Below are positions 5,635 to 38,052 of a stretch of DNA of 64,000 nt, in pieces. Numbering within the stretch: the stretch's first letter is position 1; every line of letters starts with the position of its first letter. The position numbers and the translations under genes are program-made. Below the pieces are notes generated by a model that was not told the DNA's origin, did no database searches, and was given only the letters and a program-made list of their open reading frames with translations. The DNA comes from Oscillospiraceae bacterium (GTDB lineage Bacteria > Bacillota > Clostridia > Monoglobales > Monoglobaceae), in the NCBI GenBank assembly GCA_015068655.1, contig SVKC01000002.1, forward strand, positions 1-64,000, written 5' to 3'.

Positions 5635-6543
5635 TTATATCACAACTTTTTGGCGGTATAGTTTTGTTATTTTATAGTTATTTAAAATTTGTTCCGCAAC
5701 CCAGCGGTTAGTTTGCGGAGTATAATGCACAGCATCCTCGATAAAAATCCCGTTTCCCCTGATTCCCGAAGTATAATGGGGGGCATCACAAACATCAAAA
5801 ACTGATATATTTTCGTTTTCTGAGCTTAACTGTTCAAAAACACCATTGATGTAATGCAGCTTTTCAAGGGACTCACCCGAAGGGTCAAGGTCAAGACACC
5901 GGTCATAGCTCACCATTTTGTGCAAAACTATCGGCACTTTTTTACCCAAGGCATCACAAAAGCCGTCAAAAAGTGCGTAATAAGTTTTTTTCAGAGAGTT
6001 GTTCAGCAGCTCAGCAGAAGCTGTTGTGTCGTTTTCTCCCCCACGCCAATGAACGCCCATAATTTCAGGCGTTTTTCCCTGTTCGTTCAGGCTTTTGCCA
6101 ATAAGCGAAAGAATATGAACCGTAAATGGATATAGGGAAATATCAACCGTGCCAAGGACTCCGGGAATGAGCTTTTTTTCATAAGTGGGATTCCACATAT
6201 ACCCGTCTGTGATTCCCTGAGCACCAATTGCAATTTGTACAATATATAAATCGGGAAGATTGTTTTTGTTTCCCGAATCAATCTCCTTCTGCCACAAATC
6301 CGCAAGATAATTGGCAAGAGAGTAAGTGTGATCCTGCTCCTCGGCAAGATTCATTCCGCCGCTTGTGTATCCGCTCCAGCGCAAATTACTTATATCAAAG
6401 GATTGGTTATGTTTTCTGTCTAAACCAAAAACATTTTTTAATGGTTTGCAGAATTTATCCTTGTTTTCCATTGGTATTCCATGCCCCACGGCATTGGATT
6501 GTCCAAGAAGAATGAAAACAGCAGCTTTATCCTGATTATTCAC
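5635..6543 (-). CDS. Sialate O-acetylesterase-like carbohydrate esterase (DUF303/SGNH type)
   Basis: This 302-aa cytosolic protein (no signal peptide) has the family signature ILLGQSNAVG with Ser16 as likely nucleophile, the block MGVHWRGGEND and a late histidine in EDAVHYTP. Members remove acetyl groups from sugars. The GTG start overlaps the end of the preceding SGNH gene, so the two are translationally coupled. It is the last gene of the long leftward locus. It likely deacetylates imported oligosaccharides; the exact ester is unknown. Confidence 0.75.
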   Translation of the reverse strand: MNNQDKAAVFILLGQSNAVGHGIPMENKDKFCKPLKNVFGLDRKHNQSFDISNLRWSGYTSGGMNLAEEQDHTYSLANYLADLWQKEIDSGNKNNLPDLYIVQIAIGAQGITDGYMWNPTYEKKLIPGVLGTVDISLYPFTVHILSLIGKSLNEQGKTPEIMGVHWRGGENDTTASAELLNNSLKKTYYALFDGFCDALGKKVPIVLHKMVSYDRCLDLDPSGESLEKLHYINGVFEQLSSENENISVFDVCDAPHYTSGIRGNGIFIEDAVHYTPQTNRWVAEQILNNYKITKLYRQKVVI

Positions 6544-7141
6544 AGCTTTTACCCCATATATTCTTTTCTATATTTTTTACCACATAATCGGCAATCAATT
6601 GAGAACCCTTTTCATTAAAGTGTACCCAGTCCGAATGTAAATCTTCACCAAAGTCCTTTGTCAGCCCATACAGGTCATTTACCTCCACATTCAGCCGATT
6701 CATTAATTCTTTTGCAGCCTCATTATACTTTTCAATATCAGCATTATACCTGAAGAAATCAGGGTCAGCCCATTCTTCAATAACCGCTGTTGAGGTAGCA
6801 AAAACGATCCTTGCATTGGGAAAAAGCTGAACGATTCTGCCATAAACACGTTCAAGCATATTCACATAAACATCACAAGGTGTAAGAGGCTCATCCTTAT
6901 TTATCCGCAAAACATCCCAAAGCCCGTTATTCCAGTGAACAAGGTCAATCCTCTCACCATCAATATTCTTCGCCCATTCATGCAAATACCTCAGGGTATA
7001 CTGTGCCATACGGCAATTTTCATCGGGAGCATACACATTTGCTCTGCCGTTTAAGGCTTCCTTTACATAACCCCCGTACCCCGGGCTGTTTGGCGGTGCG
7101 CCAAACCGTATGGAATCACCAATCAAAAATATGTTTTTCAT
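6536..7141 (-). CDS. SGNH/GDSL-family hydrolase
   Basis: This 201-aa protein starts at ATG 7141, chosen because GGAG lies six bases upstream; an earlier in-frame codon would read into the upstream gene. Block I is IFLIGDSIRFG (Ser10), and the C-terminal catalytic block is HSDWVHFNEKG, giving the Asp-x-x-His pair. The SGNH fold covers carbohydrate esterases and some lipases; in this locus a second acetyl-xylan or pectin-type esterase is the sensible guess. It overlaps the start of the DUF303 gene by eight bases. Confidence 0.75.
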   Translation of the reverse strand: MKNIFLIGDSIRFGAPPNSPGYGGYVKEALNGRANVYAPDENCRMAQYTLRYLHEWAKNIDGERIDLVHWNNGLWDVLRINKDEPLTPCDVYVNMLERVYGRIVQLFPNARIVFATSTAVIEEWADPDFFRYNADIEKYNEAAKELMNRLNVEVNDLYGLTKDFGEDLHSDWVHFNEKGSQLIADYVVKNIEKNIWGKSCE

Positions 7142-7160
7142 ACTGAACTCCATTTCCTTG

Positions 7161-8168
7161 TTACAAATACATTCTGCCGCCTGTTTTGGCAGCTTCAACT
7201 TCCTTCAACACCAGCTTCACCGACTCACAAGCTGATTCCGGCGATATGTTTTCCAAACCTTCCCCGTCAATTATACACTTCAAAAACGCACGTATTTCCC
7301 GCATATGCGAAGGTTCTGCATCAAGAACAGGCGAAAAGCTGTCCTCGTCCTGATATACCGTCATTGTGCCGTCCTTAATAACCACCGTTGCTTTTTCAAA
7401 ATTAACCATACACCGTTTTTCAAAGGGAAAGCTCTGGGGCATTGCCCAGTCCGCTCCCGAAACAACCAATAAATTGTCATAAAAATAATGAGTAAAAACC
7501 GATTCAAGACCTGCCTTACGCTCGGTAACAGCAGATTCCAGAGCCTTCGGCAGTCCAAAAAACCAGTTAATCAAATCCACATCGTGAATATGCATATCAA
7601 GAGCACATCCGCCGCTTTGCTTCGGGTCCAGAATCCAGTTGTTCCACGTCCAGCAGGGCAGTTGAGAATATCTGAAAAATTCAGCTCTGAAGGGTTCTCC
7701 GAATGTCTTTTTGTCAACATACTCCTTCAGTTTCTCGTATGCAGACTCAAAACGTGCACTGTGTCCAATCATCAGATATTTTCCGCTTGACATTGCCGCT
7801 CTGCTCATATTTTCACAGCTTTCTGCCGACAACGCCATTGGTTTTTCCGAAAACACATGAACCCCCTTTTTCAATGCATACACCGCCACCTCTTCATGCA
7901 AAAAGGTCGGCAGCGTAGAAAGAACAAAATCCAATGGTTCATTATTGAGCATTTCCCTGTAATCCTGATAAAACTTGCACTCCGAAAAATCAACAGAGGA
8001 TAAATCGACCTCGCCAATATTCAGATTCATGCTATTCTTTACGGTCGCTTCATCTGCTCCGCAAATTGCATGCAAATGAATATCTCCGCGTTCCTTTTCA
8101 AGCTCAAGCAGGTTCATCAAATGCTTTTTACCCAAGCCTCCAAAGCCAATAATTGCATATTTATACAT
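7161..8168 (-). CDS. Gfo/Idh/MocA-family oxidoreductase
   Basis: About 335 aa. The NAD(P)-binding Rossmann domain begins YAIIGFGGLGKKH, the mid-domain EKPMA lysine motif is present, and the C-terminal alpha/beta domain includes GGCALDMHIHDVD with the usual catalytic histidine region. I prefer the ATG at 8168, preceded by GGTGATGAG; an ATG four codons earlier is possible. These enzymes oxidise or reduce a sugar hydroxyl, often at C3. It sits between the LmbE and SGNH genes and resembles the oxidoreductase at 11608 (shared GFGGLG and EKPMA). Confidence 0.85.
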   Translation of the reverse strand: MYKYAIIGFGGLGKKHLMNLLELEKERGDIHLHAICGADEATVKNSMNLNIGEVDLSSVDFSECKFYQDYREMLNNEPLDFVLSTLPTFLHEEVAVYALKKGVHVFSEKPMALSAESCENMSRAAMSSGKYLMIGHSARFESAYEKLKEYVDKKTFGEPFRAEFFRYSQLPCWTWNNWILDPKQSGGCALDMHIHDVDLINWFFGLPKALESAVTERKAGLESVFTHYFYDNLLVVSGADWAMPQSFPFEKRCMVNFEKATVVIKDGTMTVYQDEDSFSPVLDAEPSHMREIRAFLKCIIDGEGLENISPESACESVKLVLKEVEAAKTGGRMYL

Positions 8169-8192
8169 CTCATCACCCATTTAAAAACTTCT

Positions 8193-9053
8193 TTACAATG
8201 AAAACAATTCTTCTTTCAGCTCATCAGTCAACGCCGCACCGTATCCGCAAAGTTGAAATGCCTCTGCGTAACGAATTTTTGAACCCTTTTCCTCACCGTA
8301 CTGTTTTTTTAGTTCAGCCCTGAACCTTGATGCTGTTTTTGCAAAACGAACAGCATAACCCCATCCGTCATGCATGAGCTTTGCACTCAGAATTTCTTCA
8401 TCGGTGTAATCATCAAAATTTTTTGTGCCCTTCAGCCATTGCACGCGTTCATTCTCGTCTGTGGGGGCAGTAACACCGTATGTATATGGCAGCCATTCAT
8501 AAAGCTGCGAATCGTTCATATGTGCCATTTGAAGCTTGGTATCAACTTCATCATCCATATCCACAACAATATCTGCACGAAAATCAGGTTCCTGAATATT
8601 ATCCTCATTATACATAATAACAGGCATAAATCGCATTGCAGGAACATCGGGACACTCATGGGGCACCGTCAAAAGATATGAAGCGTCCATAACAAGCTGA
8701 CCCGATGCACGGTGGTCGGCATGATAATCGCTGGGACGGTGAGCAATAATCAAATCAGGCGAAAACTCTCTGATATAACGAATAAGTCTCTTTCGAGTTT
8801 TTAAATCAGCCACCAGATTGCAGTCGTCATAGTCCCATACATCATATGTTATTCCCAAAAACTTTGCGACCGACTGCGATTCCTTTGCCCGCTTTGCCAC
8901 AGTTTCTTCAAATGTCATGATATGATGTCCGCCACAGCCGTTACACATACTCAAAAAACGCACCTCGTGTCCCTTTTTCGCACACTTGTGAGCCAAGCCA
9001 CCGCATCTGAATTCGCTGTCGTCCTGATGCGCACCAATCATTAATACCTTCAT
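8193..9053 (-). CDS. LmbE/PIG-L family deacetylase
   Basis: This 286-aa zinc-dependent N-deacetylase fold has GAHQDD at residues 7-12 (family consensus AHPDD, here Pro to Gln) and the second metal motif HADHR. Relatives hydrolyse N-acetyl groups of GlcNAc-type sugars or amides. There is no signal peptide, so it acts in the cytoplasm. It lies in tight order with the upstream TIM barrel (gap under 30 bp) and downstream oxidoreductase, so it probably processes the same imported sugar. The substrate cannot be named. Confidence 0.8.
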   Translation of the reverse strand: MKVLMIGAHQDDSEFRCGGLAHKCAKKGHEVRFLSMCNGCGGHHIMTFEETVAKRAKESQSVAKFLGITYDVWDYDDCNLVADLKTRKRLIRYIREFSPDLIIAHRPSDYHADHRASGQLVMDASYLLTVPHECPDVPAMRFMPVIMYNEDNIQEPDFRADIVVDMDDEVDTKLQMAHMNDSQLYEWLPYTYGVTAPTDENERVQWLKGTKNFDDYTDEEILSAKLMHDGWGYAVRFAKTASRFRAELKKQYGEEKGSKIRYAEAFQLCGYGAALTDELKEELFSL

Positions 9054-9080
9054 ATTTATCCGTCCTTCCCGTTTTTCTTT

Positions 9081-9911
9081 TTAATATCCCGCTTGTAAAA
9101 ACGCAATTGATTCATCAAGCACTTCAATGCCAACCTGATTATACGTGCTGATTTCAATGCTTAATCGTCCATCAAAACCATCCTTGACAATCGTTGTCAA
9201 TAATTCTTTCAAAGGAAGAAATCCCTTGCCGAGAGCACATCCCTCAAGACAGGCAACACCGTTTTTCTTAATGGTTCCATTTTCATCCTTAACCCAGTCC
9301 TTGAAATGAAAATGTCTGATTCTGTCACGCAGAGTATTATACATTTCCCAAACATCCTCATCAACCACATAGGAGTTGGCTGTATCAAGAACAAAATCCA
9401 AACCCGGCACATTATCCAGAATATATTTAATATCTTCCGTCCTTGAATCAACTCTTTCCAAAGAGCTTCTGTTTTCAAATGACAATCCAACGCCAATCTT
9501 CTTTGCATAGTCAACAAGAAGACCATAGCCTTCAATCGTCAAGTCACGCAGTTCATTAAACTCCTGCTGATTTTTTGCAGGCTCAGTCATTGGTGAAAGC
9601 ATCATATCACCAATTCCATATTTGGACATCTGTTCCATGTATTCTTTTAAAATACAAATATTCTTTTCTCTTTCTTCCTTGTCACGGGCAGCAAAATTAT
9701 TGCCTATAATCAGGCTTCCGGGCTTCATACCACTCAACTCATAATATTTCATATATTCATCCAGTGGATACAAGTCAAAAAACGAACCGATAATATCGGA
9801 ATATTCCATACCCTTCTCCCTGTAATATTTAAATCCCTCAACAGGATTTTCAAACAGATTTTCCCGTGCCTGCATCAATATATTGTGTGAAAAACTTGAA
9901 ATGTGTAACAT
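9081..9911 (-). CDS. Sugar phosphate isomerase/epimerase-like TIM barrel (AP endonuclease 2 fold)
   Basis: 276 aa. The divalent-metal ligands of the xylose-isomerase-like family are visible along the barrel: Glu in GLSFENRS, Asp in FVLDTANS, His in HFHFKDW and Glu in LSIEIST. GAGG-type ribosome site (AAGGAGG). Such proteins are sugar epimerases, keto-isomerases or, when paired with Gfo oxidoreductases, lyases acting on 3-keto glycosides. It lies between the metallo-hydrolase and LmbE genes. The second TIM barrel at 10772 is more divergent, so the two probably act at different steps. Confidence 0.8.
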   Translation of the reverse strand: MLHISSFSHNILMQARENLFENPVEGFKYYREKGMEYSDIIGSFFDLYPLDEYMKYYELSGMKPGSLIIGNNFAARDKEEREKNICILKEYMEQMSKYGIGDMMLSPMTEPAKNQQEFNELRDLTIEGYGLLVDYAKKIGVGLSFENRSSLERVDSRTEDIKYILDNVPGLDFVLDTANSYVVDEDVWEMYNTLRDRIRHFHFKDWVKDENGTIKKNGVACLEGCALGKGFLPLKELLTTIVKDGFDGRLSIEISTYNQVGIEVLDESIAFLQAGY

Positions 9912-9923
9912 GAAATAACCTCC

Positions 9924-10751
9924 TTATTCTATTTCAACTGTAAATCCATCGTATGCAACCAAAAAGCCGTGCTTCCCAACCTGATTTTCCAGCTTATGCT
10001 GAATAGGTCCTCCGTTATGTGAAAAATGATTTATAACCTTAATAGTTTTATCATTAACCGCACCGATTTCCTTCAGTTTTTTAACCAGCCTAAGATTATT
10101 TTCAATTCCCATATGCACATCATTGTCAGAAGTGGGAATATTAACGCAAGTGCAATCAAGAGTGACAAAATCAAAGAAGATTTTGTTATTCTCAATATAT
10201 TCAAAAACTTCGTCAAAAAAATATCCCGTATCGTGTGCATAAAGAATTGTCTTGTCATCTTCTCTGATTATATAAATCAATCCCCCGCCATTTGCGGGAT
10301 TGTGCCTTGCCGTCAATGGTGTCACCCTGTAATTTCCAACATTCACTTCTTCAAAGGGCTTCAATTGATGCACAGAAACCTCTGTGCAATCATCAAGAAA
10401 TCCTTCAAGCTCTTGATATACTTTTTCACCGCAAAACACATCAAGCATGGGTACACGCATATTGTGAGCATAAGGAACGCCTCGATGCTGAAGCTCCTCA
10501 GGATAAAAATGGTCGCCGTGGTTGTGGGTTATGAGCAGATTTGCGATTTTGTCACCCTCAATTCCGTTACACAGAAAATGGCTGTATGTATCAGCAGGCA
10601 AATCAATAAGCAAATCATCATTTATCAGCGTCTGCGATCTTGTTCTTATGTTTTTACCACCAAGATGCCTTGCCTCAGAACAATACTCGCAATTACAAAA
10701 CACACCGGGACATCCCTCTGCCGCTGCAGTACCTAAAAACTTTATTTTCAT
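9924..10751 (-). CDS. MBL-fold metallo-hydrolase, PhnP-like
   Basis: 275 aa. It has the metallo-beta-lactamase zinc motif HNHGDH at residues 76-81, further histidines (TARHNP) and aspartates (AHDTGY, VTLDCT). An N-terminal cysteine cluster (C14, C19, C21, C24) resembles the structural zinc site of PhnP phosphodiesterases. PhnP cleaves cyclic ribosyl phosphates; here, among sugar enzymes, it may open a lactone or a cyclic phosphate. Start ATG follows GGGAGG. The downstream TIM barrel begins 12 bp after its stop. Confidence 0.8.
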   Translation of the reverse strand: MKIKFLGTAAAEGCPGVFCNCEYCSEARHLGGKNIRTRSQTLINDDLLIDLPADTYSHFLCNGIEGDKIANLLITHNHGDHFYPEELQHRGVPYAHNMRVPMLDVFCGEKVYQELEGFLDDCTEVSVHQLKPFEEVNVGNYRVTPLTARHNPANGGGLIYIIREDDKTILYAHDTGYFFDEVFEYIENNKIFFDFVTLDCTCVNIPTSDNDVHMGIENNLRLVKKLKEIGAVNDKTIKVINHFSHNGGPIQHKLENQVGKHGFLVAYDGFTVEIE

Positions 10752-10771
10752 GGGTTTCCTCCCTGAACCAT

Positions 10772-11590
10772 TTACAGTTCATTCCAAATATCTGCAATAA
10801 ACTTAATTGCTTCTTTATTGTCTTTTATTCTCTGTTCTTTATCTGCAATTTCACGTTCAAGAGTAAAGGGGCCGTCATAGCCAACAGCCTTGAGCTTTTT
10901 CAGTAAAATCGGGAAATTAACGCTGCCCTCACCGACCTTTGTCTGCTTGCCGTTTTTTCTTCCGCAAACAGGGGGCACAGCATCCTTGATGTGAACACCT
11001 CGCACATACTTTCCGAATACATCCATTGCATCAACAGGATTGCCTTTTCCGTAACCGATGAGATTAGCAGGGTCAAGGTTCACTCCCATGTTGCCTGTAT
11101 TCACATCCTCAAATGTTCTCAGCAAGGTCATTGGTGTTTCCTGACCTGTTTCAAACAGAAAATGCTGATTGTTTGCCGCACAGTGATTGCCAATCATTCT
11201 GAGATACGGAATCAGACTGTTGTATTCTGCGCTGAGAGGATTTTCGGGTATAAAACCAACATGAGTAATAATATCCTCAACACCAAGCTTTTTTGCAAAA
11301 TCTGAGCCTAACATCATTGATTTTACTCTTTCAGCACGGGTGGAAACGGGCACCAGTCCCAAAGTTTCATAACCGTCATAAGAATTCCAGACAGCCCAGC
11401 CGGGCCAGAAGCACCAAAGTGCCGAAATTTCAAGATTATACTTATCACAAAGCCTTTTTGCCAGCTCCACCTGTTCATCTGTCAAGTTTTCAGGTGTGCA
11501 ATATACCCTCAATTGAATTGTGGAAACCCCGGTTTCGTGAGCTTCAGCAAATTCTTCCTCCAAAAAACCTATAATTGAACCGAATTTCAT
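10772..11590 (-). CDS. Sugar phosphate isomerase/epimerase-like TIM barrel
   Basis: 272 aa. Metal-binding motifs of the xylose-isomerase-like superfamily are present: FLFETGQET, GVNLDPANL, GVHIKDA and TLERE. These match the protein at 39952 closely (IETGPET, VNLDPANL, HAKDG, TIERE), so the two are probable paralogues serving separate operons. It lies directly downstream of the Gfo oxidoreductase at 11608, with a 17-bp gap, a pairing repeated at 38900/39952. Confidence 0.8.
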   Translation of the reverse strand: MKFGSIIGFLEEEFAEAHETGVSTIQLRVYCTPENLTDEQVELAKRLCDKYNLEISALWCFWPGWAVWNSYDGYETLGLVPVSTRAERVKSMMLGSDFAKKLGVEDIITHVGFIPENPLSAEYNSLIPYLRMIGNHCAANNQHFLFETGQETPMTLLRTFEDVNTGNMGVNLDPANLIGYGKGNPVDAMDVFGKYVRGVHIKDAVPPVCGRKNGKQTKVGEGSVNFPILLKKLKAVGYDGPFTLEREIADKEQRIKDNKEAIKFIADIWNEL

Positions 11591-11607
11591 AGCTAAAAAC
11601 CTCTTTT

Positions 11608-12612
11608 CTAAAGCTTTACCTTTTCATTTGTCTCAACTGATTTCATTTCAGCAAAAACCATCTCAATTGATTGCATTGTGCTTTCAGCCGGCACAATGAG
11701 ATTGGGCTTGTTTTCAATAATGCATTCAATAAAATGCTTCATTTCAGCATCATAGCCCGAATAGGTTGCATCGCACTCTATTTCTGTCATTTCGCCGTCC
11801 TCGGGATAAACAACAACACCTTTATCGCCTGTTACAAGAACAGCTTTTTCAAATTGTGCAAACAAGGTTGGTTTGAAGCCATAGCAATTGGGCATACTCC
11901 AGTCACCGGTAACACGAATGATTGCATCATTATCATAGAAGAAACGGCTTGTTATGCAATCAAATCCTGCAATTTTGTGTATGGCTTCCGACTGTACCGA
12001 ATTGGGACGTCCAAGCATATAATTGAGAAAATCCACATCATGAACATGGAGGTCCAACGCCGCACCACCACTTTTTTCAAAGTCCATATACCAGTTTTCC
12101 CAACCCCAAACAGGCGGAAAACCATAGCGGTTTAATTCCAATCTCAAAAGCTTTCCATACTTGCCGCTGTCACAAGCCTCTTTAAGAATTTTATATCTCA
12201 AATTAAATCTGACACACTGACCAATCGCCAGTTGCTTTCCGTTACGTTCTGCTGCCGCAATCATTTCCTGACATTCAGCTACTGTTCTCGCCATTGGCTT
12301 TTCACAAAAAACATGAGCACCCTTATCAAGAGCCATAATTGAATATTTTGCATGAAGATATGTGGGCAATGCAACAACCACAAGATCAAATTTTTCATCG
12401 TTTAGCATTTTCTCGGCATCTGTATACAGCTTATACGAGGAAACATCAAACTCTTTCCCCTTGCCCTGATTGGTGTCTGTTGCTTTTGTAAACTTTTCTT
12501 CGTTTACATCGCATATGGCAACAAGCTCAACATTTTCATTATTAATCAAATTGGAAAAATGAATTTGTCCCAATCCACCAAAACCTATAATTCCGCATTT
12601 TAATTTTGACAT
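11608..12612 (-). CDS. Gfo/Idh/MocA-family oxidoreductase
   Basis: 334 aa. Rossmann motif CGIIGFGGLGQIH at the N-terminus, EKPMA near residue 105, and the C-terminal substrate domain with GGAALDLHVHDVDF. GGACGGAGAG precedes the ATG. It follows the GH31 glycosidase by 20 bp and precedes a TIM barrel by 17 bp. Probable role: NAD-linked oxidation or reduction of a sugar released by, or presented to, the GH31 enzyme. Close in motif to the oxidoreductase at 7161. Confidence 0.85.
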   Translation of the reverse strand: MSKLKCGIIGFGGLGQIHFSNLINNENVELVAICDVNEEKFTKATDTNQGKGKEFDVSSYKLYTDAEKMLNDEKFDLVVVALPTYLHAKYSIMALDKGAHVFCEKPMARTVAECQEMIAAAERNGKQLAIGQCVRFNLRYKILKEACDSGKYGKLLRLELNRYGFPPVWGWENWYMDFEKSGGAALDLHVHDVDFLNYMLGRPNSVQSEAIHKIAGFDCITSRFFYDNDAIIRVTGDWSMPNCYGFKPTLFAQFEKAVLVTGDKGVVVYPEDGEMTEIECDATYSGYDAEMKHFIECIIENKPNLIVPAESTMQSIEMVFAEMKSVETNEKVKL

Positions 12613-12632: not shown

Positions 12633-14858
12633 TTAAATTAATATTTCACAAATATTATCTTTACCTCGCATATCTTCAGCAATTGAAAAACAAGCTGTTT
12701 TTTTCACGTCATCATAAGCAAAATCAATCGTTTCGCCGTCAACGGTCACTTTTTTCGGTTTTTGAATTTGATATAAAATCACGTCAAATCCCTTTTCCTT
12801 GGGTAAATCAATATTTTCGCCATTTGGAACAACTCGTTTTTTCACCTGAACAGTCAAACCTTTTTCCGAAAGGTCTGAAACCGAAATCTCTGTCTTGCCG
12901 TAAGCTCCGTTCATATAATCATAAGTAACTCCGTCATCCTCAATCAGCTCAAAGCGTGCGGCCTCTCCGGGGAAAATATGGATTGTATATTTATCCTTAC
13001 TTTCCTCATCCAGATAAGCCTTCGGAGCCTGTGTGACAATAACCGAACCCTCTTTGGCAAACAAAGCACCGCCTTTTCCTTGGGGAATCTTATAATCCAG
13101 AGTTCTTCCGCCTTCAACAACATCGCCCGTGAACCAGTCATACCACCGTCCATCAGGAAGGGTCAGGTGCATATCAAAAGCCCCCACAAGCAGGCTGTCA
13201 CCAAGCATATACATATTCAGCACATCGTCAAACTCAGGCACATCTTCATAAACAAGGGACAAGGGTCTTGCAACAGCAAGTCCTGTTTTTGACGCATAAT
13301 GCGCCATAGAATAAAGGTACGGGAACAAAGAGGAACGAAGCTCAGAGTATTCCCGAATCATTGTTTCCTTTTCCTTGCCCAAAAACCACGGATGCTGCCA
13401 GTTTCGCCACGCATTGATTTGTGACCATGGCATCAGAAAACCAAAATGTATTCCCTCAGGATATGTAATATCCAAATCGCACGAGGCATTTGAATGACCG
13501 CAAAAAGCCATATTCATAACATAAGGAACAGTGTCCGTACCGCCGCCTGTGTCACCCGCCCAGGTTGCGGCATACTGCTGTGTTCCTGCATAAAGGCTTG
13601 GCGTATATATAAGCGCACGCTGACCCGTATGCTCCGTATATCCCTGCTGCATTTGTTTTGCATAGATAACAGGATATAAATTGTGAATTTCGTCATCATG
13701 ATATTTCCCTGCCCACAATCTGTCGGGATGGGTCATAACCTGAAGTGCTCCGTCAAGCTTGAAGCCTGCCGCACCCTGTTCAACAAACTTTTTAAGATGT
13801 TCAAACCACGGCTCGGACGGAACAGTTACCTTGTCCATTATCACTGCATTTCCGGCAAAATGGTCATCAACAATTTCTGCCCCCGCCATTGAACGGGTTT
13901 CTTCCTTTGTCTCAGCCTTTTGCCCCTCCTCGTACCAGAACAAGTCATAATCACAGCAAAGCCACAAGGATAATTTAAAACCCAACTGCCTCAGGTTAAA
14001 GAAAAAGGACCAGTCACCATTATAGTTTTCGGGCTTCCAGTATGGCAGATAAAACTTTTCAGGGTTCCACCTTTTGTTTACACTGTAATCATAATGGGTC
14101 TCCATCCAGCTGGGTTCAAGTCCCATAATGTCACAGGGGATTTCTCTGTCCCTGAAGGAAAGACAGTTCTGCAGAAGGTCTCTTGCCCCCTCCTCCTCGT
14201 TGCACACAAAGGTGAGCCCGTATGCATAACGGGGAAGCATTATGGGTTTTCCCGAAATATCCGTATAAAGATTTATGATTTCCTTCATGGAATCCCCAAG
14301 GAATATGTAAAAATCAACATTTCCCTTTTCGGCATTTATCATAACCTCATGGGGATTTGTCTTTCCCAAATCATAGGTATGTTTGTATGTGCAGTTGACC
14401 AGAATCCCCCAGCCCTCTGCACTCACAAGGAAGGGAATGGGGCCGTAGGTAACAACATTTTCAACCCACATGGTCGCTGTTCTGCCACGCTTCATAATGT
14501 GTTTTCTGGTTTCATCACCAAGCCCGAATAATCTCTCTGTTTTTGTAATGGGAATTGAAAGTGAGAACCCTTCCCGGTTCAGGGAAACGCCAACCTCCAA
14601 TTGACGCTTTGAGCCCTTGAATCTGAGACTTCCCTCTTTTTCTTCAATTTCCAGCGTATATCCTGAATCAGAAATTACAGTATTTTCCTTTGATTCATCA
14701 ACAGTATAAAGGCTCGTTTCATCCGTGCCCTTCAAAACACCGTATTTATTCAACAGAGACACTCCATAATCATTTGTTTTCGATGCACAAACGTGAAACA
14801 CTCCGTTTTCAGGCATGGAGACCTTCATAAAACCGTCTGAAAAGCTCTGCTCGTACAA
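12633..14858 (-). CDS. Glycoside hydrolase family 31 (alpha-xylosidase/alpha-glucosidase type)
   Basis: 741 aa, no signal peptide, so cytosolic. The GH31 nucleophile is Asp369 in GFKLDG, and the acid/base is Asp436 in WAGDTGG. An N-terminal galactose-mutarotase-like beta domain (about 1-200), the catalytic barrel (about 205-560) and a C-terminal beta domain follow the family order. It starts at a TTG with GGAGGG six bases upstream. GH31 enzymes remove alpha-linked xylose, glucose or galactose with retention. Family context (xyloglucan or pectic side chains) makes alpha-xylosidase plausible. It leads the cytosolic enzyme block of the locus. Confidence 0.9.
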   Translation of the reverse strand: MYEQSFSDGFMKVSMPENGVFHVCASKTNDYGVSLLNKYGVLKGTDETSLYTVDESKENTVISDSGYTLEIEEKEGSLRFKGSKRQLEVGVSLNREGFSLSIPITKTERLFGLGDETRKHIMKRGRTATMWVENVVTYGPIPFLVSAEGWGILVNCTYKHTYDLGKTNPHEVMINAEKGNVDFYIFLGDSMKEIINLYTDISGKPIMLPRYAYGLTFVCNEEEGARDLLQNCLSFRDREIPCDIMGLEPSWMETHYDYSVNKRWNPEKFYLPYWKPENYNGDWSFFFNLRQLGFKLSLWLCCDYDLFWYEEGQKAETKEETRSMAGAEIVDDHFAGNAVIMDKVTVPSEPWFEHLKKFVEQGAAGFKLDGALQVMTHPDRLWAGKYHDDEIHNLYPVIYAKQMQQGYTEHTGQRALIYTPSLYAGTQQYAATWAGDTGGGTDTVPYVMNMAFCGHSNASCDLDITYPEGIHFGFLMPWSQINAWRNWQHPWFLGKEKETMIREYSELRSSLFPYLYSMAHYASKTGLAVARPLSLVYEDVPEFDDVLNMYMLGDSLLVGAFDMHLTLPDGRWYDWFTGDVVEGGRTLDYKIPQGKGGALFAKEGSVIVTQAPKAYLDEESKDKYTIHIFPGEAARFELIEDDGVTYDYMNGAYGKTEISVSDLSEKGLTVQVKKRVVPNGENIDLPKEKGFDVILYQIQKPKKVTVDGETIDFAYDDVKKTACFSIAEDMRGKDNICEILI

Positions 14859-28632: not shown

Positions 28633-30549
28633 TTATTTCTCTTTCCAGTTTCTTATATCGTCCATGTAATCTGCATTAATTTCGTTAAACACCTTGTTAA
28701 ATTCATCAAGGCAGGCGTCATCATAGCCATTGCGTTCTTCAATTGCCACAAACTCTTTATATGCCTTTTCAAATGCATCTTCGGTTTTTGATGCAAGAAC
28801 TGCCTTCAATGCATCCTCAATAACCTGTCTTGCATCCCACATCTTCTTTACACCCGGAACCTGACCTGTGTAGTTGTAAACCACCCACGACTGAGCTGCA
28901 CGGGGATAATCTGCTTTGGGTATTACCTTTGAGATTTTGAATTCATTCACGTAGTTTGATGCAACACGTTCTTTTTCTTTGTTTGCATACATAAGCTGCG
29001 GATGGAACTTGTTGAAATATGAAGTTGAACCGCCAATCATGGTTGTAATAACAGGGAATGACTTATAGCCGTAATCATACATAACCTGGTCGTCACCATT
29101 ATAAAGCATTGCCGATTCAAATTTCTTGTCTGTATATTCAAAAGTTCCGTCATCATTCACCTTATACAAGCCACTCTTTTCGGGACCCCACATAGCAAAC
29201 TTCATACCTGCATCGGTATAGAAGAAGTCAAGGAAACGAAGAATCTGTTCAACCTGCGTTTCATTCAGCATATCCTTGAAGAATATCACATTATAGTCAG
29301 CAAGCAGACGGTTTGCATTTACGTTGAGGAAACGGCTGTGGTCAACGGGAATATCAATGAAAACCTTTCTGTATGAATAGTTCTTGCCGCCTGCAGCCAG
29401 AACCTCATCCGACGGAGGTGCTGTCAGACCGTAAAGAATTGCATATTCGCCGTTATTCTTTTTCTGGTCAAATGCCGCCTTGGTATCAATAAAGGCTTCT
29501 TCCGATGCAAGACCCTCACGGTACAGCTCGTTGAAGAACTTAACCAAGTCTTTGAACCAGTCTTCCTTTGCAGGATTAACCAGCTTCTGCTTTTGCACGT
29601 CATAATATCCGAAATATGTAACCGCATCACCATAGCCTGTGCCTGCCAATGCATCCATCTCGGCAAGCAAGCTCCAGTTGTCAGTTCCCTCTGAAATATA
29701 GAAGGGCCAGACAGTTCTGCCGTTTTCGGTGATATTCAACGCCTTTATATCCTGAAGCAGCTTTTTGAATTCATCCATACTTGTAATCGTGTAATCAAGA
29801 ATCTGCTCCTTGGTAAAACTGCCCTTTTGCATATAAATGTCCTTCAGCTCCTGAGCTGTGTGAGCCTCGGGGCGGATGGTCTTTAAAATGTCATCACGAA
29901 CCCAGACCCAGTTTCTGCTTTCACCCATGGGCGTAACATTTTTATATCTTTCAGGAGTATATTCGGGGTCAAGATACTGGGATGAATGCTTGCTCAGTCC
30001 CGTCCATGAATACATCTTTCCGTTATGGAACAAACGTCTGTTAAACTCCCTCTTTATATCATCATGGGAATTAACATATGACATATAATTTGGCATATAC
30101 TTGGGAACCATTTCTGTCAAATCATAAATCTTGTCTTCCTCAAAGAGCATTGTTGCAATGTTTCCTTCAACACCAATGCCGATATGAGGCCAGCTCTTTG
30201 TTGAAACCATTTTTGCAATCCTTGCATCACAGCTTTCACCACCGTTGTCAAAGGATGTTTTTTCGCTGAAGCTGATGCCCGTTGCTCTGGTCAGCTCACC
30301 CTGAAACTTATCGTTTGTTTTTGTTCTGCCGATGGCAACATTATTTGTTCCTGCGCCGTACCACACAGACAGGTCAAGCTGTTCACCCGTCCAGTCAGGC
30401 AAATCATCAATGATGTCTATCCCGTCCATTTCATTGATGGCATAGGGAAGGGGTTCGGATTCATTCTTACCCTTTCCCGAACATCCTGCAAGAATACCCG
30501 CCATAAGTACCGCCGCCAAAGCCAGAGAGACAATTCTTAATTTCTTCAT
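28633..30549 (-). CDS. Extracellular solute-binding lipoprotein of a carbohydrate ABC transporter (LplA-like)
   Basis: 638 aa. Type II signal with lipobox LAGC (lipidated Cys23), then an acidic, tryptophan-rich bilobed binding domain. Length is at the upper end for LplA-type proteins. It follows two permease genes with only 34-76 bp gaps. It should capture oligosaccharides released by the surface proteins and pass them to the permeases. No ATPase gene occurs in the window, as usual for Lpl systems that share an MsmX-type ATPase. Confidence 0.9.
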   Translation of the reverse strand: MKKLRIVSLALAAVLMAGILAGCSGKGKNESEPLPYAINEMDGIDIIDDLPDWTGEQLDLSVWYGAGTNNVAIGRTKTNDKFQGELTRATGISFSEKTSFDNGGESCDARIAKMVSTKSWPHIGIGVEGNIATMLFEEDKIYDLTEMVPKYMPNYMSYVNSHDDIKREFNRRLFHNGKMYSWTGLSKHSSQYLDPEYTPERYKNVTPMGESRNWVWVRDDILKTIRPEAHTAQELKDIYMQKGSFTKEQILDYTITSMDEFKKLLQDIKALNITENGRTVWPFYISEGTDNWSLLAEMDALAGTGYGDAVTYFGYYDVQKQKLVNPAKEDWFKDLVKFFNELYREGLASEEAFIDTKAAFDQKKNNGEYAILYGLTAPPSDEVLAAGGKNYSYRKVFIDIPVDHSRFLNVNANRLLADYNVIFFKDMLNETQVEQILRFLDFFYTDAGMKFAMWGPEKSGLYKVNDDGTFEYTDKKFESAMLYNGDDQVMYDYGYKSFPVITTMIGGSTSYFNKFHPQLMYANKEKERVASNYVNEFKISKVIPKADYPRAAQSWVVYNYTGQVPGVKKMWDARQVIEDALKAVLASKTEDAFEKAYKEFVAIEERNGYDDACLDEFNKVFNEINADYMDDIRNWKEK

Positions 30550-30583
30550 TTTTTCTTCCTCCTTATATTTAAACTTTTAATTT

Positions 30584-31507
30584 TTAACCTTTTACCGAGC
30601 CAAGAGTAACACCCTTAACAAAATATTTCTGCAGGAATGGATATGTCAGAATTATAGGAATTGTAACCACAATAACCTGAGCCGCTTGCATAGATTCCGT
30701 TGTGACCTTCATTTGCGACGCAAGCTGCTGTACGTCTTCACCTTGCTTGAGTGCCTCCTGCATAAGTGCCGTAATTCTTTCAGACTCCTTCAATGTCTGC
30801 ATCAGCTTATACTGAAGGGTATGCAAGTCGGGATTTTGAATGTAATAAAGGGTTGATGTCCATTCGTTCCACGATGCAACCGCCGTCCAAAGGATAATTG
30901 TTGCCAAAATGGGCTTGCAAAGGGGCATAACAATTTTTGAAAATGTAATCCATTCGTTTGCACCGTCAATATTTGCCGCTTCTACAATGCTGTCTGATAT
31001 ATTGGAGCTCATATATGAACGGATGATAATAACGTTATAAAAATTCCACATAGCAGGGAAAACATACACCCAAAAGCTGTTCAGAAGCCCGATATTTGAA
31101 TACAGAATATAATTGGGAATAAGACCACCGGCAATGTATGTGGGAATCAGGAAGAAAAGGTTGACACCTTTCAATCCCCACAGATCTTTTCTTGACAGAC
31201 CGTATCCCGCCATAAACTGAACCATAACACTGCCCACAACAAAAAGTACCACCTTTGCAACCGTCACAAAAAATGCTCGATACATACTACTGTCAGCCAA
31301 AAGTACTCTATAATTTTCCCAGGTAAAAACTCTTGGGAAAAACGTAATACCGCCTCGCATACTGTCAATTCCATCATTAAGTGATTTCGCCAAAACGTTT
31401 AAGTAAGGCAGCAATGTAATCAAAATTACGAAAAGCATAACAAATGTATTAAAAACTTTAAATACAGCGTAAGCTTTGCCTTCATTTTTTAACTTGTTTA
31501 TAAACAT
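30584..31507 (-). CDS. Carbohydrate ABC transporter permease (LplC/YtcP type)
   Basis: 307 aa from ATG 31507, chosen because AGGGG lies nine bases upstream; a GTG three codons earlier has no spacing. Six hydrophobic segments are visible. The ATPase-contacting EAA loop reads EAANIDGANEW. Typical of the YtcP/LplC family that imports plant oligosaccharides, partner of the LplB permease 14 bp upstream. Confidence 0.9.
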   Translation of the reverse strand: MFINKLKNEGKAYAVFKVFNTFVMLFVILITLLPYLNVLAKSLNDGIDSMRGGITFFPRVFTWENYRVLLADSSMYRAFFVTVAKVVLFVVGSVMVQFMAGYGLSRKDLWGLKGVNLFFLIPTYIAGGLIPNYILYSNIGLLNSFWVYVFPAMWNFYNVIIIRSYMSSNISDSIVEAANIDGANEWITFSKIVMPLCKPILATIILWTAVASWNEWTSTLYYIQNPDLHTLQYKLMQTLKESERITALMQEALKQGEDVQQLASQMKVTTESMQAAQVIVVTIPIILTYPFLQKYFVKGVTLGSVKG

Positions 31508-31521
31508 AATTCTCACCCCTT

Positions 31522-32490
31522 TTATATCAGCGAAGTATCATTCAACTTCTTTGAGAGGTAGTTTGCACCCAGAATAAGCAAAACGCTGAGTGTTCCGCTC
31601 ACAAAGCTAAATGCCGTTGCCACAGAATAATTGCCCTGTGTGATACCTTGCTTGTAGATAATAGTAGAAATAACCTCAAAATCAATAAACACATTCTGCA
31701 ATCCGAAAATCAAATCAAAATTCGAAGTAAACAGTTGTCCGATTTGCAATACGAATAGCATAATTATAGTTGTCCTCAGACTTGGCAGCGTAATGTGCCA
31801 GCATTGCCTCATTTTCCCTGCACCATCAATAATCGCAGCTTCATACAGAGAAGGGTCTATTCCCGAAATACCCGAAAGATAAATAATGGTATTCCATCCA
31901 ACACTTTGCCATATGGTCAATATTACAATATTGGGAACAAAAAAGCTTTGCTGTCCAAGGAACAAAATACGTTCTGTGCCTTCTCCCAGCAAGGAAATTC
32001 TCAAGTCATTAACAATACCCGAGCTACTGAAAAGTGTTGTCGCAATGCCCACAACAGCAATTGTAGAAATAAAATGGGGCAAATAACTGAAGGTTTGTGT
32101 AAGCCGTTTTAGTGGTCTGCAGCTTACCTCATTCAAAAGCAATGCAAAAACAATCGGTAACGGGAATATCAAAAACAAGCTGATACCGCTGAGCAAAAGC
32201 GTATTTGTTATGGCTTTTAAAAACTCAGGAATCATAAAAATCGATTTGATATTTTCCAAACCGACAAATGTACTTCCAAAAATTCCTCTGAACGGATTAT
32301 AGTCAACAAACGCCATATAAAGCCCCGGCAATGGTATGTAACCGAACACAATTGTGAGAATCAGTCCGGGAAGCAAAAACATATACTTTCCTTTGTTCTT
32401 CTTTATGCACTTGAAAGCATAGCCGCTTGAAATTGCCCTTAATCCTGTTTGTCCACGTTGTTTTTCATCAAATTTTTTTTCAGTCTTCAC
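31522..32490 (-). CDS. Carbohydrate ABC transporter permease (LplB type)
   Basis: 322 aa, GTG start after GGAGG with seven-base spacing. Six transmembrane segments, and the EAA loop YEAAIIDGAGKMRQ. First gene of the long leftward locus after the YesM terminator, so its 5' region holds the locus promoter. Forms the channel with the LplC gene. The first gene after the two-component system is the usual YesMN target. Confidence 0.9.
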   Translation of the reverse strand: MKTEKKFDEKQRGQTGLRAISSGYAFKCIKKNKGKYMFLLPGLILTIVFGYIPLPGLYMAFVDYNPFRGIFGSTFVGLENIKSIFMIPEFLKAITNTLLLSGISLFLIFPLPIVFALLLNEVSCRPLKRLTQTFSYLPHFISTIAVVGIATTLFSSSGIVNDLRISLLGEGTERILFLGQQSFFVPNIVILTIWQSVGWNTIIYLSGISGIDPSLYEAAIIDGAGKMRQCWHITLPSLRTTIIMLFVLQIGQLFTSNFDLIFGLQNVFIDFEVISTIIYKQGITQGNYSVATAFSFVSGTLSVLLILGANYLSKKLNDTSLI

Positions 32491-32605: not shown

Positions 32606-34327
32606 TTACTTCTGTTCAATTTCTATTGGTATTTTTATTGTCACTCTGGTAAAATGCTGTTCTTCGGATTCCACTTCAAAAAAGTATTCTTCATTATACC
32701 AATGCTTCAGTCGAGCTATGGTGTTATATAAACCAACGCCAAATTTTCTTTCATCTGTTTTCAGCATAGACATAATTTCTGTTACAACACTATCCGGCAT
32801 CCCCTCGCCGCTGTCAAACACTTCAATGGCAAGCATATCATTTTCTCTTTTTATTTTAATTCGCAAAAGGCATTCCGTTCTCTTGTTCAACCTCTTTGAC
32901 AAACCGTGAATAATTGCATTTTCCACAACAGGCTGCAACAAAAAGTTCGGCACTATATAGTCTTTCACATCATCATCAACGAGAAAAAAGGTATTAAGCC
33001 TATTGTTGTATCTTGTACTCATAATTGCAATATAGTTTTCGATAAAATCTATTTCTTCACTGACCTTGACATAATTTGTTTTTCCTGACAGCAAATATCG
33101 GTACATTTTTGTCAGCCTCGAAATAGCCTCACTTATTTCCGATTGTCCGTTTGTCATAGCAAGAATCTTGATATTCGAAAGTGTGTTATAAAGAAAATGC
33201 GGTTTTATCTGATACCTCAGTGCATCCACCTCAGCCCGTCGCTTTTGTTCCTCCTGAACCTTGAGAGCCTCAACAGACTTGCTAATTTCACTACGCATTT
33301 TGTTATAGTGGCTTACCAACATTTCAATTTCTTTTCCCCCACTTATGGTAAATTCATCCTCCGTCAGATTCCTGTCCATATGATGCATCAATTCCTGCAT
33401 CGGTTTTATAAACCGTTTTCTCATCAACGAATATACCCACAAAATCAGGACAACGAAAATCAAAACAAGAATAAGCATTGCCAAAATTATTCCGTATCCA
33501 TCTTTATAAAATTCCCACGTTTTGTAAATTGTCAAGAATTTAAACGAACTGCCCGGCACCTGATAATGAGCTGTAATATATCTGTCACTGTATTTTTGGA
33601 AATCAAAAATGCCGGTTTCTGTTTCATAGAGCAAAACAAGCATATCAAAGGTTATTGCTGAGCCCTCTTTGAACTCCTCATGGTTATTCACCGCAAGAAC
33701 CTTTCCTTCATTCATAATCAGAGTCAGGTTATTGTTGTTCTCCATCCCCTTCATTATATTATCAATAGCTTCTTTCCTCACAAAAAAGAACAAAGTAGTG
33801 TAAGCAGCATCACTTTCTGAAATATTTGCTCTCACAATATAATAATTTGTATAACGGTAAACATAATCCTTGTCATCGCCGTTATACCATCTTAATCTGC
33901 TTATTGCATCGGGGTTATGACCGTATTGCATTTTCAATTGAATTGTATCAACATGAATTCTGTCAGGGTTATATGTATATTCCCGCCCATCAGATGTAAA
34001 CAAAAAACACGCTCCAATGCTGTTGTCATACAAAACCTTTGCGAGCATTGTTTCCACTTTTGTAACCTCATTTTTTTCAGAGCCTGAAAAACAGTCCTTG
34101 TTGCTTTCAATGTCATCCACCATATTTTCGATGCGCGCAACCAAGGCTTCCATCTTTTCGCTGGCATTCTGCATCTGAAGCAATGCGGTTTTTTCAATCT
34201 GCTGAAATACGGTCTTCGACACCACAGTGCAGGAGTATGTTCCCAGAATAATTATCCCAAGTATACAAATGACAACAACACAAACAAATAACCGTTGCAG
34301 GGTTCCGGCAAAAAGATGCTTATTCAT
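32606..34327 (-). CDS. Sensor histidine kinase, YesM type
   Basis: 573 aa. Transmembrane segments at about 14-34 and 280-302 bracket an extracellular sensor domain of the dCache kind. HAMP follows at about 303-355, then the phosphorylated histidine His377 in QIKPHFLYNTLSN. The ATP-binding N-box QPVVENAIIHGL is at 465-476 and DSGEGMP at 505-511. The start overlaps the YesN stop by a few bases. It should sense an extracellular oligosaccharide and phosphorylate YesN. Confidence 0.9.
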   Translation of the reverse strand: MNKHLFAGTLQRLFVCVVVICILGIIILGTYSCTVVSKTVFQQIEKTALLQMQNASEKMEALVARIENMVDDIESNKDCFSGSEKNEVTKVETMLAKVLYDNSIGACFLFTSDGREYTYNPDRIHVDTIQLKMQYGHNPDAISRLRWYNGDDKDYVYRYTNYYIVRANISESDAAYTTLFFFVRKEAIDNIMKGMENNNNLTLIMNEGKVLAVNNHEEFKEGSAITFDMLVLLYETETGIFDFQKYSDRYITAHYQVPGSSFKFLTIYKTWEFYKDGYGIILAMLILVLIFVVLILWVYSLMRKRFIKPMQELMHHMDRNLTEDEFTISGGKEIEMLVSHYNKMRSEISKSVEALKVQEEQKRRAEVDALRYQIKPHFLYNTLSNIKILAMTNGQSEISEAISRLTKMYRYLLSGKTNYVKVSEEIDFIENYIAIMSTRYNNRLNTFFLVDDDVKDYIVPNFLLQPVVENAIIHGLSKRLNKRTECLLRIKIKRENDMLAIEVFDSGEGMPDSVVTEIMSMLKTDERKFGVGLYNTIARLKHWYNEEYFFEVESEEQHFTRVTIKIPIEIEQK

Positions 34328-35843
34328 CAGTTCTCATCCTTTCTATCTTGCTGGGAGAGCATCCATATTGCTCACAGAACAGCCGACTGAAATGCTCATA
34401 ATTGCGATAACCGACTGCTGTGGCAATTTCGCTGTATTTCAGACTGCTGGTCTTGATAAGCTGCATCGCTTTTTCAAGACGAACCGAATTCAGATATTTT
34501 TTAAAGGTCACACCTTTTAACTTTCTGAACATTCTTGAAAAATATCCATATTCATACTGAAAATTCTTTGCAATCATTTCCAGGGTCAGTTCTTCGGCAT
34601 AATGCTGCTGAACATATTCATCCAACTGTTCCGCAAGCCGCTTATCAGGGAACAACAAACTACCGGATATGGTCCGGACATATTTTTTCAGGAGCTCTAT
34701 TGCCACTTCATAATTGTAACACTCCATAATTTCTCCGAACGACAAACCTTCATCAAGAACAATATCAGAGGATTTTGCATAATCCGTAACCAACAAATAG
34801 ATATGTCTGTAAAAAAACAAAACTGTTTCGATTACATCATTCTCCGGATATACATCCTTCATTGCATCAAGCTTTTTAATTATGGTATTAAATTCCTTTT
34901 TCTGAAAACAGTTTTCAATATCCGAAAACTCTTTTTTGTAATCAAAAGAGTCCTGAAATCTCTCGGCAATTTTAAATGTAATAATTTCCGACTCCGAACA
35001 GAAAAATCTGTATTTCCTTAAATTATAAATTTCTTTGTATCTGCTTCTAAGGTTTCTCAAAAGGGTATAGGTGTTATCAAGATATACATATATCCGAAGT
35101 CCGAATTTTTGTTCCAATACAGTCTTTGTCTTGTACAAAATTTGCTTAATTGCAACTATATCACTGACAGAAAACAGCATAATAATTTTATCCGGTTCGT
35201 TAAAAAAGTACTCAATATGTTTAAATTCTGAAAACGCCTGATCAAGATAATTCGATATAGAATTTTTCAAAAAATCCTTATCCATATTCCACTCATCTTT
35301 AACAATTCGCTCAAGATTCAATATATCAATCAACGCAAACAACAATTTGCATTCAAGAAAGTTTTCGGATATATTCTTTTCCTCCGCAACCTGTATTTCT
35401 CCCCAAAATATTTCTTTCAGGTTCTTCTCCTTTTGAATATTTTCGTCACGCTGCAGCTGTTGCTTTGAGAATTCCTGTTCAACGAAAGTGGAGATTACTT
35501 TCCGATAGTGTTCTGTTTCGAACTCCGTCTTTGGGATATAATCACAAATTCCTATTCTGAACGCCTTTCGCACAAGCTCAAAGTCCTGATAATTGCTGAT
35601 AACAATAAAATGCGTATCCTTATTGAAACGCAACAGTTCGGACATAAATTCAATGCCGTTCATTCCGGGCATAACAATATCCGTCACCACAAGATCAACT
35701 TTATTGTGCCGAAGATTTTCCAGTGCATCTTCCGCACAACAAAAAGAACCGCATATTTCCAATCCAAGCTCCTTGTAGTCAATGCAGCCTTCAAGAAATT
35801 CACGCATAAATAGTTCATCTTCAACAATAGCCAGCTTTAGCAT
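34320..35843 (-). CDS. Response regulator with AraC-type DNA-binding domain (YesN type)
   Basis: 507 aa. N-terminal receiver domain with acidic pocket (IVEDE) and the phospho-acceptor Asp55 in VVTDIVMPGMNG. A middle coiled or helical linker follows (about 130-400). The C-terminal AraC double HTH (about 405-505) includes LKYSEIATAVGYRNYEHFSRLF. Cotranscribed with YesM. It likely activates the transporter and surface operon downstream of the terminator at 32568. Confidence 0.9.
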   Translation of the reverse strand: MLKLAIVEDELFMREFLEGCIDYKELGLEICGSFCCAEDALENLRHNKVDLVVTDIVMPGMNGIEFMSELLRFNKDTHFIVISNYQDFELVRKAFRIGICDYIPKTEFETEHYRKVISTFVEQEFSKQQLQRDENIQKEKNLKEIFWGEIQVAEEKNISENFLECKLLFALIDILNLERIVKDEWNMDKDFLKNSISNYLDQAFSEFKHIEYFFNEPDKIIMLFSVSDIVAIKQILYKTKTVLEQKFGLRIYVYLDNTYTLLRNLRSRYKEIYNLRKYRFFCSESEIITFKIAERFQDSFDYKKEFSDIENCFQKKEFNTIIKKLDAMKDVYPENDVIETVLFFYRHIYLLVTDYAKSSDIVLDEGLSFGEIMECYNYEVAIELLKKYVRTISGSLLFPDKRLAEQLDEYVQQHYAEELTLEMIAKNFQYEYGYFSRMFRKLKGVTFKKYLNSVRLEKAMQLIKTSSLKYSEIATAVGYRNYEHFSRLFCEQYGCSPSKIERMRTDE

Positions 35844-37002: not shown

Positions 37003-38052
37003 ATGAAAATAGGTATTATCGGATGCGGTACAATCGCAAACAACGCACACATTCCATCTTATATGAACAACGCAAAAGCAGAAATCAAGTATTTCTGTGA
37101 TATTATCCCCGAGCGGGCAAAAGCGGCTGTTGAAAAGTATAATTGCGGAATTGCGGTAACTGACTACAAAGAGGTTTTAAGCGACCCTGAAATTGAAGCT
37201 GTTTCAATTTGTACCCCCAACAAAGCACACTCAGAAATCGCTATCGAAGCGCTCAATGCCGGCAAAAATGTCTTGTGTGAAAAACCTGCAGCCAGAATTT
37301 ATTCCGAAGCATTAAAGATGCAGGAAGCACAGCACAAAACAGGAAAAGTTCTCAACATCGGTGTAGTTAACAGATTCAACGCCGGAGTAAACAAGCTCAA
37401 GGAATTAATTGACCAGGGTGAGCTTGGCGAAATTTATCAGGTATATGTAAGCTTCAGAAGCCACCGCTCTATCCCCGGTCTTGGCGGTGCATTCACCACC
37501 AAGGAAATCGCAGGCGGCGGTGTTATGATTGACTGGGGCGTTCATTTCTTTGATATTGTTATGTATGCCTGCGGTGACCCCAAGCCCATTTCTGCATCAG
37601 CTGAAACCTTTTCAAAACTGGGTTCTCCCATCAATGACTATGTATTCACCGATATGTGGGCAGGTCCTCCCGTACAGGACGGTATTTATGACGTTGAAGA
37701 AGGCGTAACCGGTATGGTTCGCACCGAAGGTCCCGTTATCACATTCAACGGAGCATGGGCACAAAACATCGGTGAAGACGAAATGTTCATTGACTTTATG
37801 GGAACAAAGGGCGGAATCCGACTCCAATATGGTGCAGACTTCACTCTCTATTCCACCAAAAACGGTATGCTGTCCAAAACTACATACAAAATGAATATGC
37901 CCAATATGTTCCAGAACGAAATCGACAGCTTTATCAACTGCATAGAAAACAACGAAAAACTTGCATCTCATATTGACACCAATATTATCACTGCAAAAAT
38001 GATGGATGCAATCTACCGCTCGGCAGAAACACACAAGGAGGTTATTTTATGA
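37003..38052 (+). CDS. Gfo/Idh/MocA-family oxidoreductase
   Basis: 349 aa. Rossmann start KIGIIGCGTIANNAH, lysine motif EKPAA, and a C-terminal domain with GGGVMIDWGVHFFD. AAGGAGG is nine bases before the ATG. Its stop overlaps the start of the next gene (ATGA), so the three oxidoreductases of this operon are probably cotranslated. Likely NAD(P)-dependent sugar oxidation or reduction. Confidence 0.9.
   Translation: MKIGIIGCGTIANNAHIPSYMNNAKAEIKYFCDIIPERAKAAVEKYNCGIAVTDYKEVLSDPEIEAVSICTPNKAHSEIAIEALNAGKNVLCEKPAARIYSEALKMQEAQHKTGKVLNIGVVNRFNAGVNKLKELIDQGELGEIYQVYVSFRSHRSIPGLGGAFTTKEIAGGGVMIDWGVHFFDIVMYACGDPKPISASAETFSKLGSPINDYVFTDMWAGPPVQDGIYDVEEGVTGMVRTEGPVITFNGAWAQNIGEDEMFIDFMGTKGGIRLQYGADFTLYSTKNGMLSKTTYKMNMPNMFQNEIDSFINCIENNEKLASHIDTNIITAKMMDAIYRSAETHKEVIL

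Follow-up and report, generated by a model that had tools for sequence, protein, structure and literature searches.

Gene content of the locus

The stretch analysed here, called the window, covers 64,000 nucleotides of contig SVKC01000002.1 from an uncultured gut-type Clostridia bacterium (genome 1.78 Mb, about 82% complete). At positions 7161-12612 it carries six tightly packed open reading frames on the minus strand, which a preliminary description had read as Gfo, LmbE, TIM barrel, metallo-beta-lactamase-fold (MBL) hydrolase, TIM barrel and Gfo in series. The coordinates and the Pfam families are both confirmed, with every family match above its cut-off. We interpret the genes as a cytoplasmic keto-sugar module of Gfo oxidoreductases and TIM barrels, set in a glycan-utilisation operon together with recruited accessory hydrolases, a reading to which we give a probability of about one half. 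The six genes are as follows.

7161..8180, minus strand: Gfo1, Gfo/Idh/MocA oxidoreductase, 339 amino acids (Pfam GFO_IDH_MocA)
8193..9053, minus strand: LmbE, PIG-L/LmbE-type zinc deacetylase, 286 amino acids (Pfam PIG-L)
9081..9911, minus strand: TIM1, PF01261 TIM barrel, 276 amino acids (Pfam AP_endonuc_2)
9924..10751, minus strand: MBL, PhnP-family MBL-fold hydrolase, 275 amino acids (Pfam Lactamase_B_2)
10772..11590, minus strand: TIM2, PF01261 TIM barrel, 272 amino acids (Pfam AP_endonuc_2)
11608..12612, minus strand: Gfo2, Gfo/Idh/MocA NAD(P)-dependent oxidoreductase, 334 amino acids (Pfam PF01408, GFO_IDH_MocA, 103 bits)

Transcription runs in the order Gfo2-TIM2-MBL-TIM1-LmbE-Gfo1. 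Intergenic gaps measure 12, 27, 12, 20 and 17 bases, counted from the Gfo1 end to Gfo2, and Shine-Dalgarno-like sequences precede most of the genes; the ATG of codon 5 (8168) is the more likely start of Gfo1. The genome holds 14 matches to PF01261 and 16 to PF01408 in its 1.78 Mb, so that a run of six genes containing four of these matches is far above chance expectation. Judged by sequence, all six proteins look like working enzymes, and the conserved residues given below are those that serve catalysis or metal binding in the respective families.

Conservation of the TIM2-Gfo pair

All six proteins were searched in 148 relatives, followed by gene-neighbourhood annotation, with wider searches for TIM1 in 391 genomes of the class, for the TIM1 profile in 399 genomes of the phylum, and for MBL in GTDB contigs (16 named loci from metagenome-assembled genomes). 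No other genome in these searches holds all six genes together, so the conserved co-occurrence whose absence, by the preliminary description, would refute its proposal was not found in any relative searched. The unit that is conserved is TIM2 plus Gfo, not the six-gene set. Outside its own genome the TIM2 family occupies 27 places at E <= 1e-40, 25 of them with their neighbourhoods examined. In 17 of the 27 a same-strand Gfo gene adjoins it or is separated from it by a single gene; as a genome carries some tens of Gfo genes at most, chance would produce such proximity in a few per cent of cases. TIM2 and its Gfo partners have correlated distance matrices (Mantel r 0.48, 3/5000 permutations).

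TIM1 enters several of these arrangements. In a distant genome (L111) the series TIM2-TIM1-Gfo1-GDSL follows the order of the window and lies beside genes of glycoside hydrolase (GH) families GH2 and GH123, and L071 reads TIM2-Gfo1-GH3-TIM2-Gfo1-TIM1. TIM1-family genes adjoin TIM2 in L088, L110 and L111, and Gfo in L071, L091, L111, L113, L135, L136, L142 and L144. Because these smaller combinations recur and the six do not, the most fitting description of the set in the window is a TIM2-TIM1-Gfo core, with one further Gfo, that MBL and LmbE have joined; the six-gene cassette appears to be a local assembly.

The same distribution bears on the possibility that the six genes do not form a single pathway, and that TIM2-Gfo2 and TIM1-Gfo1 are pairs for different sugars, placed in one substrate-induced operon with MBL and LmbE as separate removers of decorations. 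Such an arrangement would agree with the failure of any other genome examined to keep all six, with the occurrence of the pairs apart (Gfo1-TIM1 in L113, TIM2-Gfo2 in L067), and with the close LmbE homologues that adjoin DUF4432 or AraC genes rather than Gfo or TIM. TIM2 and TIM1 do stand together in L111, L071, L088 and L110, however, and L111 retains TIM2-TIM1-Gfo1 in the window's order. We regard the division into independent pairs as on balance unlikely.

Gfo oxidoreductases and TIM barrels

Gfo1 and Gfo2 are 38% identical, and both combine the PF01408 fold with the EKP...D-x3-H motif of the Gfo/Idh/MocA family. The EKP lysine and the D-x3-H residues are intact in each; in Gfo2, EKP and D187/H191 are invariant across 22 aligned homologues. 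The best PDB match of Gfo2 is DgpA (7xr9, 5e-28), with inositol dehydrogenases next at 1e-23.

Both barrels exceed the Pfam cut-off for PF01261 and carry its E/D/H/E metal ligands, which are invariant in TIM2 (E147, D173, H200, E245; 18 homologues aligned) and in TIM1 (E146, D176, H202, E253; 10 homologues aligned). By profile TIM1 comes closest to Art22, IolI and tagatose epimerases, and the protein is isomerase- or epimerase-like in sequence. For TIM2 the best solved relative is a structural-genomics entry of unknown function (3tva); weaker profile matches follow, among them the Agrobacterium 2-hydroxy-3-keto-glucal hydratase AtHYD (8ro4, 4.6e-6). A fold search with the AlphaFold2 model of TIM2 (predicted local distance difference test, pLDDT, 89) places many epimerases level with or above AtHYD and lists the 3-keto-glucoside 4-epimerase YcjR (6wn6) at a low rank. 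Since epimerases outrank AtHYD, the model gives no support for naming TIM2 a hydratase on structural grounds. The barrels may perform elimination and hydration, or epimerisation.

It is conceivable that no glycosidic bond is broken by these enzymes, and that a rare sugar or glycoside is converted to a common one by oxidation, epimerisation and reduction as in YcjS/YcjR/YcjQ, with hydrolysis left to the GH31 enzyme of the operon. The TIM1 profile points in this direction, as do the epimerases, YcjR included, that score near AtHYD in the TIM2 search, the presence of an ordinary glycoside hydrolase, and the E. coli ycj cluster, in which two sugar dehydrogenases accompany one PF01261-type barrel (PMC11543891). 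Two barrels of different subfamilies nonetheless exceed the need of a single epimerisation, and the best functionally characterised sequence match of TIM2 is a hydratase; we consider the purely epimerising route somewhat improbable.

LmbE and the PhnP-like hydrolase

LmbE residues H9, D11, D12 and H114 are invariant among 14 aligned homologues. The protein falls below the cut-off for the bacillithiol deacetylase BshB1 (TIGR04001; 88 vs 182.5 bits). Homologues with 64-72% identity occur in eight places, where Gfo or TIM genes directly adjoin in none (0/8); homologues of 65-72% identity lie beside DUF4432 or AraC genes. In L059, L061 and L062 the homologue (67-69% identity) is paired with a gene for the carbohydrate-related domain DUF4432. 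LmbE was rejected as a core part because its homologues lie elsewhere and not with Gfo/TIM. A second LmbE-like protein, of 236 amino acids, is encoded in the same genome (G000:C33).

A different idea is that of an amino-sugar route, in which LmbE would take the acetyl group off an N-acetylhexosamine or the corresponding 3-keto sugar, and MBL would hydrolyse a phosphodiester or lactone from the same route. Haloarchaeal relatives of LmbE (39-43% identity) were seen in seven loci, with GH20, heparinase or sulfatase genes near in two (41-43% identity) and TIM, Gfo and sulfatase genes near in a third. Among solved structures LmbE is closest to diacetylchitobiose deacetylases, both Gfo proteins have UDP-GlcNAc 3-dehydrogenase as their second-best match in NCBIfam, and the L111 core adjoins GH123, all of which would suit amino sugars. 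The glycosidase in the window, on the other hand, is a GH31 and no hexosaminidase, none of the other TIM2-Gfo loci contains LmbE, and most of the haloarchaeal loci seen are without GH20. We judge this route distinctly unlikely.

In MBL, H76/H78/D80/H81/H150/D174/H242 and the cysteine cluster C19/C21/C24 are conserved across 16 aligned sequences. The top fold match of its AlphaFold2 model (pLDDT 89) is PhnP (3g1p), and the profile search agrees; because model and profile are both closest to PhnP, its substrate is most likely of the phosphodiester or phosphate ester type. The score is below the PhnP cut-off (TIGR03307; 53 vs 272 bits), though ligands and fold agree. MBL shares with the PhnP cyclic phosphodiesterases the MBL fold, the complete metal-ligand set and the cysteine cluster, but unlike them it has no phosphonate genes that we could see nearby.

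Neighbours of MBL homologues are mostly unrelated in about 30 loci, and MBL was rejected as a cassette marker since most homologues have other neighbours. A minority of loci show a loose association with sugar genes: the gene immediately upstream is of PF01261 type in L027, L028 and L046 and a Gfo in L032 and L138, and in L050 and L051 a GH31 gene adjoins. PhnP-like MBL genes also occur as adjoining tandem pairs in L048 and L138, the latter pair coming after a Gfo. Both MBL and LmbE have the look of accessory recruits rather than of the pathway components proposed in the preliminary description.

Operon context

The genes around the six are on the same strand.

5635..6543, minus strand: SASA-type carbohydrate acetylesterase (PF03629, at its cut-off), final gene of the run
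6536..7198, minus strand: SGNH/GDSL esterase (Pfam), directly downstream of Gfo1; likely start 7141 or 7153
12633..14858, minus strand: GH31 glycoside hydrolase (Pfam PF01055, 106 bits), 20 bases upstream of the six genes and in the same operon
28633..32490, minus strand: extracellular binding lipoprotein and two ATP-binding cassette (ABC) permeases, a probable oligosaccharide importer (sequence reading, permease families), towards the operon head
32606..35843, minus strand: two-component system of sensor kinase and AraC-type response regulator (sequence reading), upstream of the importer

Between GH31 and the importer lie the genes for two surface-layer homology (SLH) proteins, large secreted proteins and a right-handed beta-helix protein with weak similarity to Pel9A. 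The one-strand run extends from 35843 to 5635, an operon of about 30 kb, and its anatomy is that of a Gram-positive glycan-utilisation locus. The description of the six genes as a compact cassette holds for their tight spacing; they are part of this longer operon, with GH31 upstream and GDSL/SASA downstream, and not free-standing.

Elsewhere in the window, a 242-amino-acid Gfo at 642-1370 matches the N-terminal domain only and is possibly truncated, and GH78-like, RpiB-like, DUF4867 and DegT genes lie in a row at 41827-46728 next to an AraC regulator. A second Gfo/TIM cluster at 37003-41852 contains GfoC, GfoD (Gfo-like, below the Pfam cut-off), GfoE and TIM3, accompanied by a convergent Zn-alcohol dehydrogenase. 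It resembles the YcjS/YcjR/YcjQ combination, and the order GfoC-GfoD-GfoF-type-TIM3 recurs in L028. A paralogous cluster in the same genome (G000:C3:1-3249, L069) consists of genes for a TIM2-like, a Gfo2-like, a 222-amino-acid and a TIM3-like protein, followed by SLH proteins; its first four genes stand in identical order in a genome of the same genus (G004, L068).

A model for the keto-sugar module

In the model that we favour, GH31 and the esterases would trim an imported and probably acetylated saccharide. A ring hydroxyl, most likely at C3, would then be oxidised by one Gfo with NAD+ to give a keto-sugar, and the metal-dependent TIM barrels would act on the acidified carbon beside the ketone, by elimination and hydration or by epimerisation or isomerisation. 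The second Gfo would reduce the product and restore NAD+. From particular substrates LmbE may remove an N-acyl group, and the PhnP-like hydrolase a phosphate-type (or lactone) group, both as recruits outside the core. The genes present and their order, the unbroken active sites and the repeated pairing of Gfo with TIM2 are observed; we infer the substrate, the C3 position, the division of labour and the direction of the reactions. Since the operon also encodes a conventional GH31 glycosidase, there is less need for a non-hydrolytic cleavage of bonds.

Several observations weigh against this model. Among the matches of Gfo2, DgpA is barely ahead of the inositol dehydrogenases, and the fold search gives hydratases no preference over epimerases for TIM2. 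The proteins of the window are only 22-27% identical to the main parts of the Lgd levoglucosan system, in partial alignments, and the NCBIfam equivalog cut-offs are all missed by far. Part of the correlation between TIM2 and Gfo distances may be accounted for by shared descent.

A more ambitious version would unite all six enzymes in one oxidative 3-keto route, not yet described, by which a glycan carrying N-acetyl and phosphate groups is opened in the cytoplasm; keto-sugar intermediates would then be the substrates of the deacetylase and the PhnP-like hydrolase. We think this very unlikely. The part worth experiment is the Gfo+TIM2 pair rather than the six-gene cassette. Many of the sampled genomes carry members of its subfamily in glycan operons, and for none of these members did we find a known reaction. 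A function for the pair would give a widespread module an assignment and tell whether these bacteria commonly use non-hydrolytic 3-keto chemistry.

Comparison with known keto-sugar systems

The Dgp/Dfg systems for C-glycoside deglycosylation (PMC8563793) also pair a Gfo, DgpA, with a TIM barrel, their alpha subunit. Their required beta subunit, CGDB/DUF6379 (PF19906), has no match over the cut-off in this genome (best 11.7 vs 27.6 bits; genome about 82% complete), which excludes a Dgp-type system, the example named in the preliminary description, strongly for the operon and more weakly for the genome. BT2158 and BT2159 of Bacteroides are also Gfo-type glycoside/disaccharide 3-dehydrogenases; the two Gfo proteins score 35 and 50 bits against NF058561 (cut-off 750) and 23 and 51 bits against NF058563 (cut-off 650). 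E. coli ycjS-ycjR-ycjQ, a 3-keto-glucoside epimerase route, likewise places sugar dehydrogenases and a PF01261-type epimerase in a sugar-import cluster, with one barrel only against two in the window.

Closest in composition is lgdA-lgdB1-lgdB2-lgdC of Bacillus smithii (PMC7676230, PMC10066097), which also has two Gfo and two dissimilar PF01261 genes in one operon with a sugar ABC importer, and whose enzymes were shown biochemically to carry out C3 oxidation, elimination, hydration and reduction (PMC7676230). As published, the lgd operon is without LmbE, MBL, GH31 and SLH genes, unlike the window. True lgd operons used for comparison lie on plasmids of Klebsiella, Metabacillus and Arthrobacter (L118, L119, L122; LgdA 747-758 bits), and the family search of the phylum for Lgd loci returned LgdA-like relatives only. 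Against the LgdA family (NF052479, LevoglcsnDh; cut-off 650 bits) Gfo1 reaches 49.6 and Gfo2 58.4 bits, and with the low identities given above this rejects the locus as an lgd operon. L118 is the Klebsiella pneumoniae plasmid pBS317-1.2, a mobilizable IncR plasmid whose levoglucosan-type operon comprises an LgdA over the cut-off, two PF01261-type genes, a second Gfo and an ABC importer.

A similar make-up of oxidoreductase, two sugar-phosphate-isomerase-like enzymes and Gfo is found in the Agrobacterium operon GlycDH-OGE-HYD-Gfo, which performs equivalent chemistry on O-glycosides (PMC10628242). GlycDH falls outside the Gfo subfamily seen here, and the profile match of TIM2 to AtHYD is a remote, partial one. 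The suggestion that the combination may define a new oxidative glycan-breakdown pathway overreaches for the Gfo+TIM part, as the four-enzyme logic is already published, and the six genes do not make up a conserved system. As a general biochemical idea it is reasonable: the match of Gfo2 to DgpA, the lgd-like composition and the glycan-uptake context all connect Gfo and TIM to 3-keto-sugar chemistry. Because two Gfo and two PF01261 proteins are combined as in lgdA-B1-B2-C, and nearly as in the Agrobacterium operon, gene composition supports a putative sequence of oxidation, enolisation at a metal and re-reduction.

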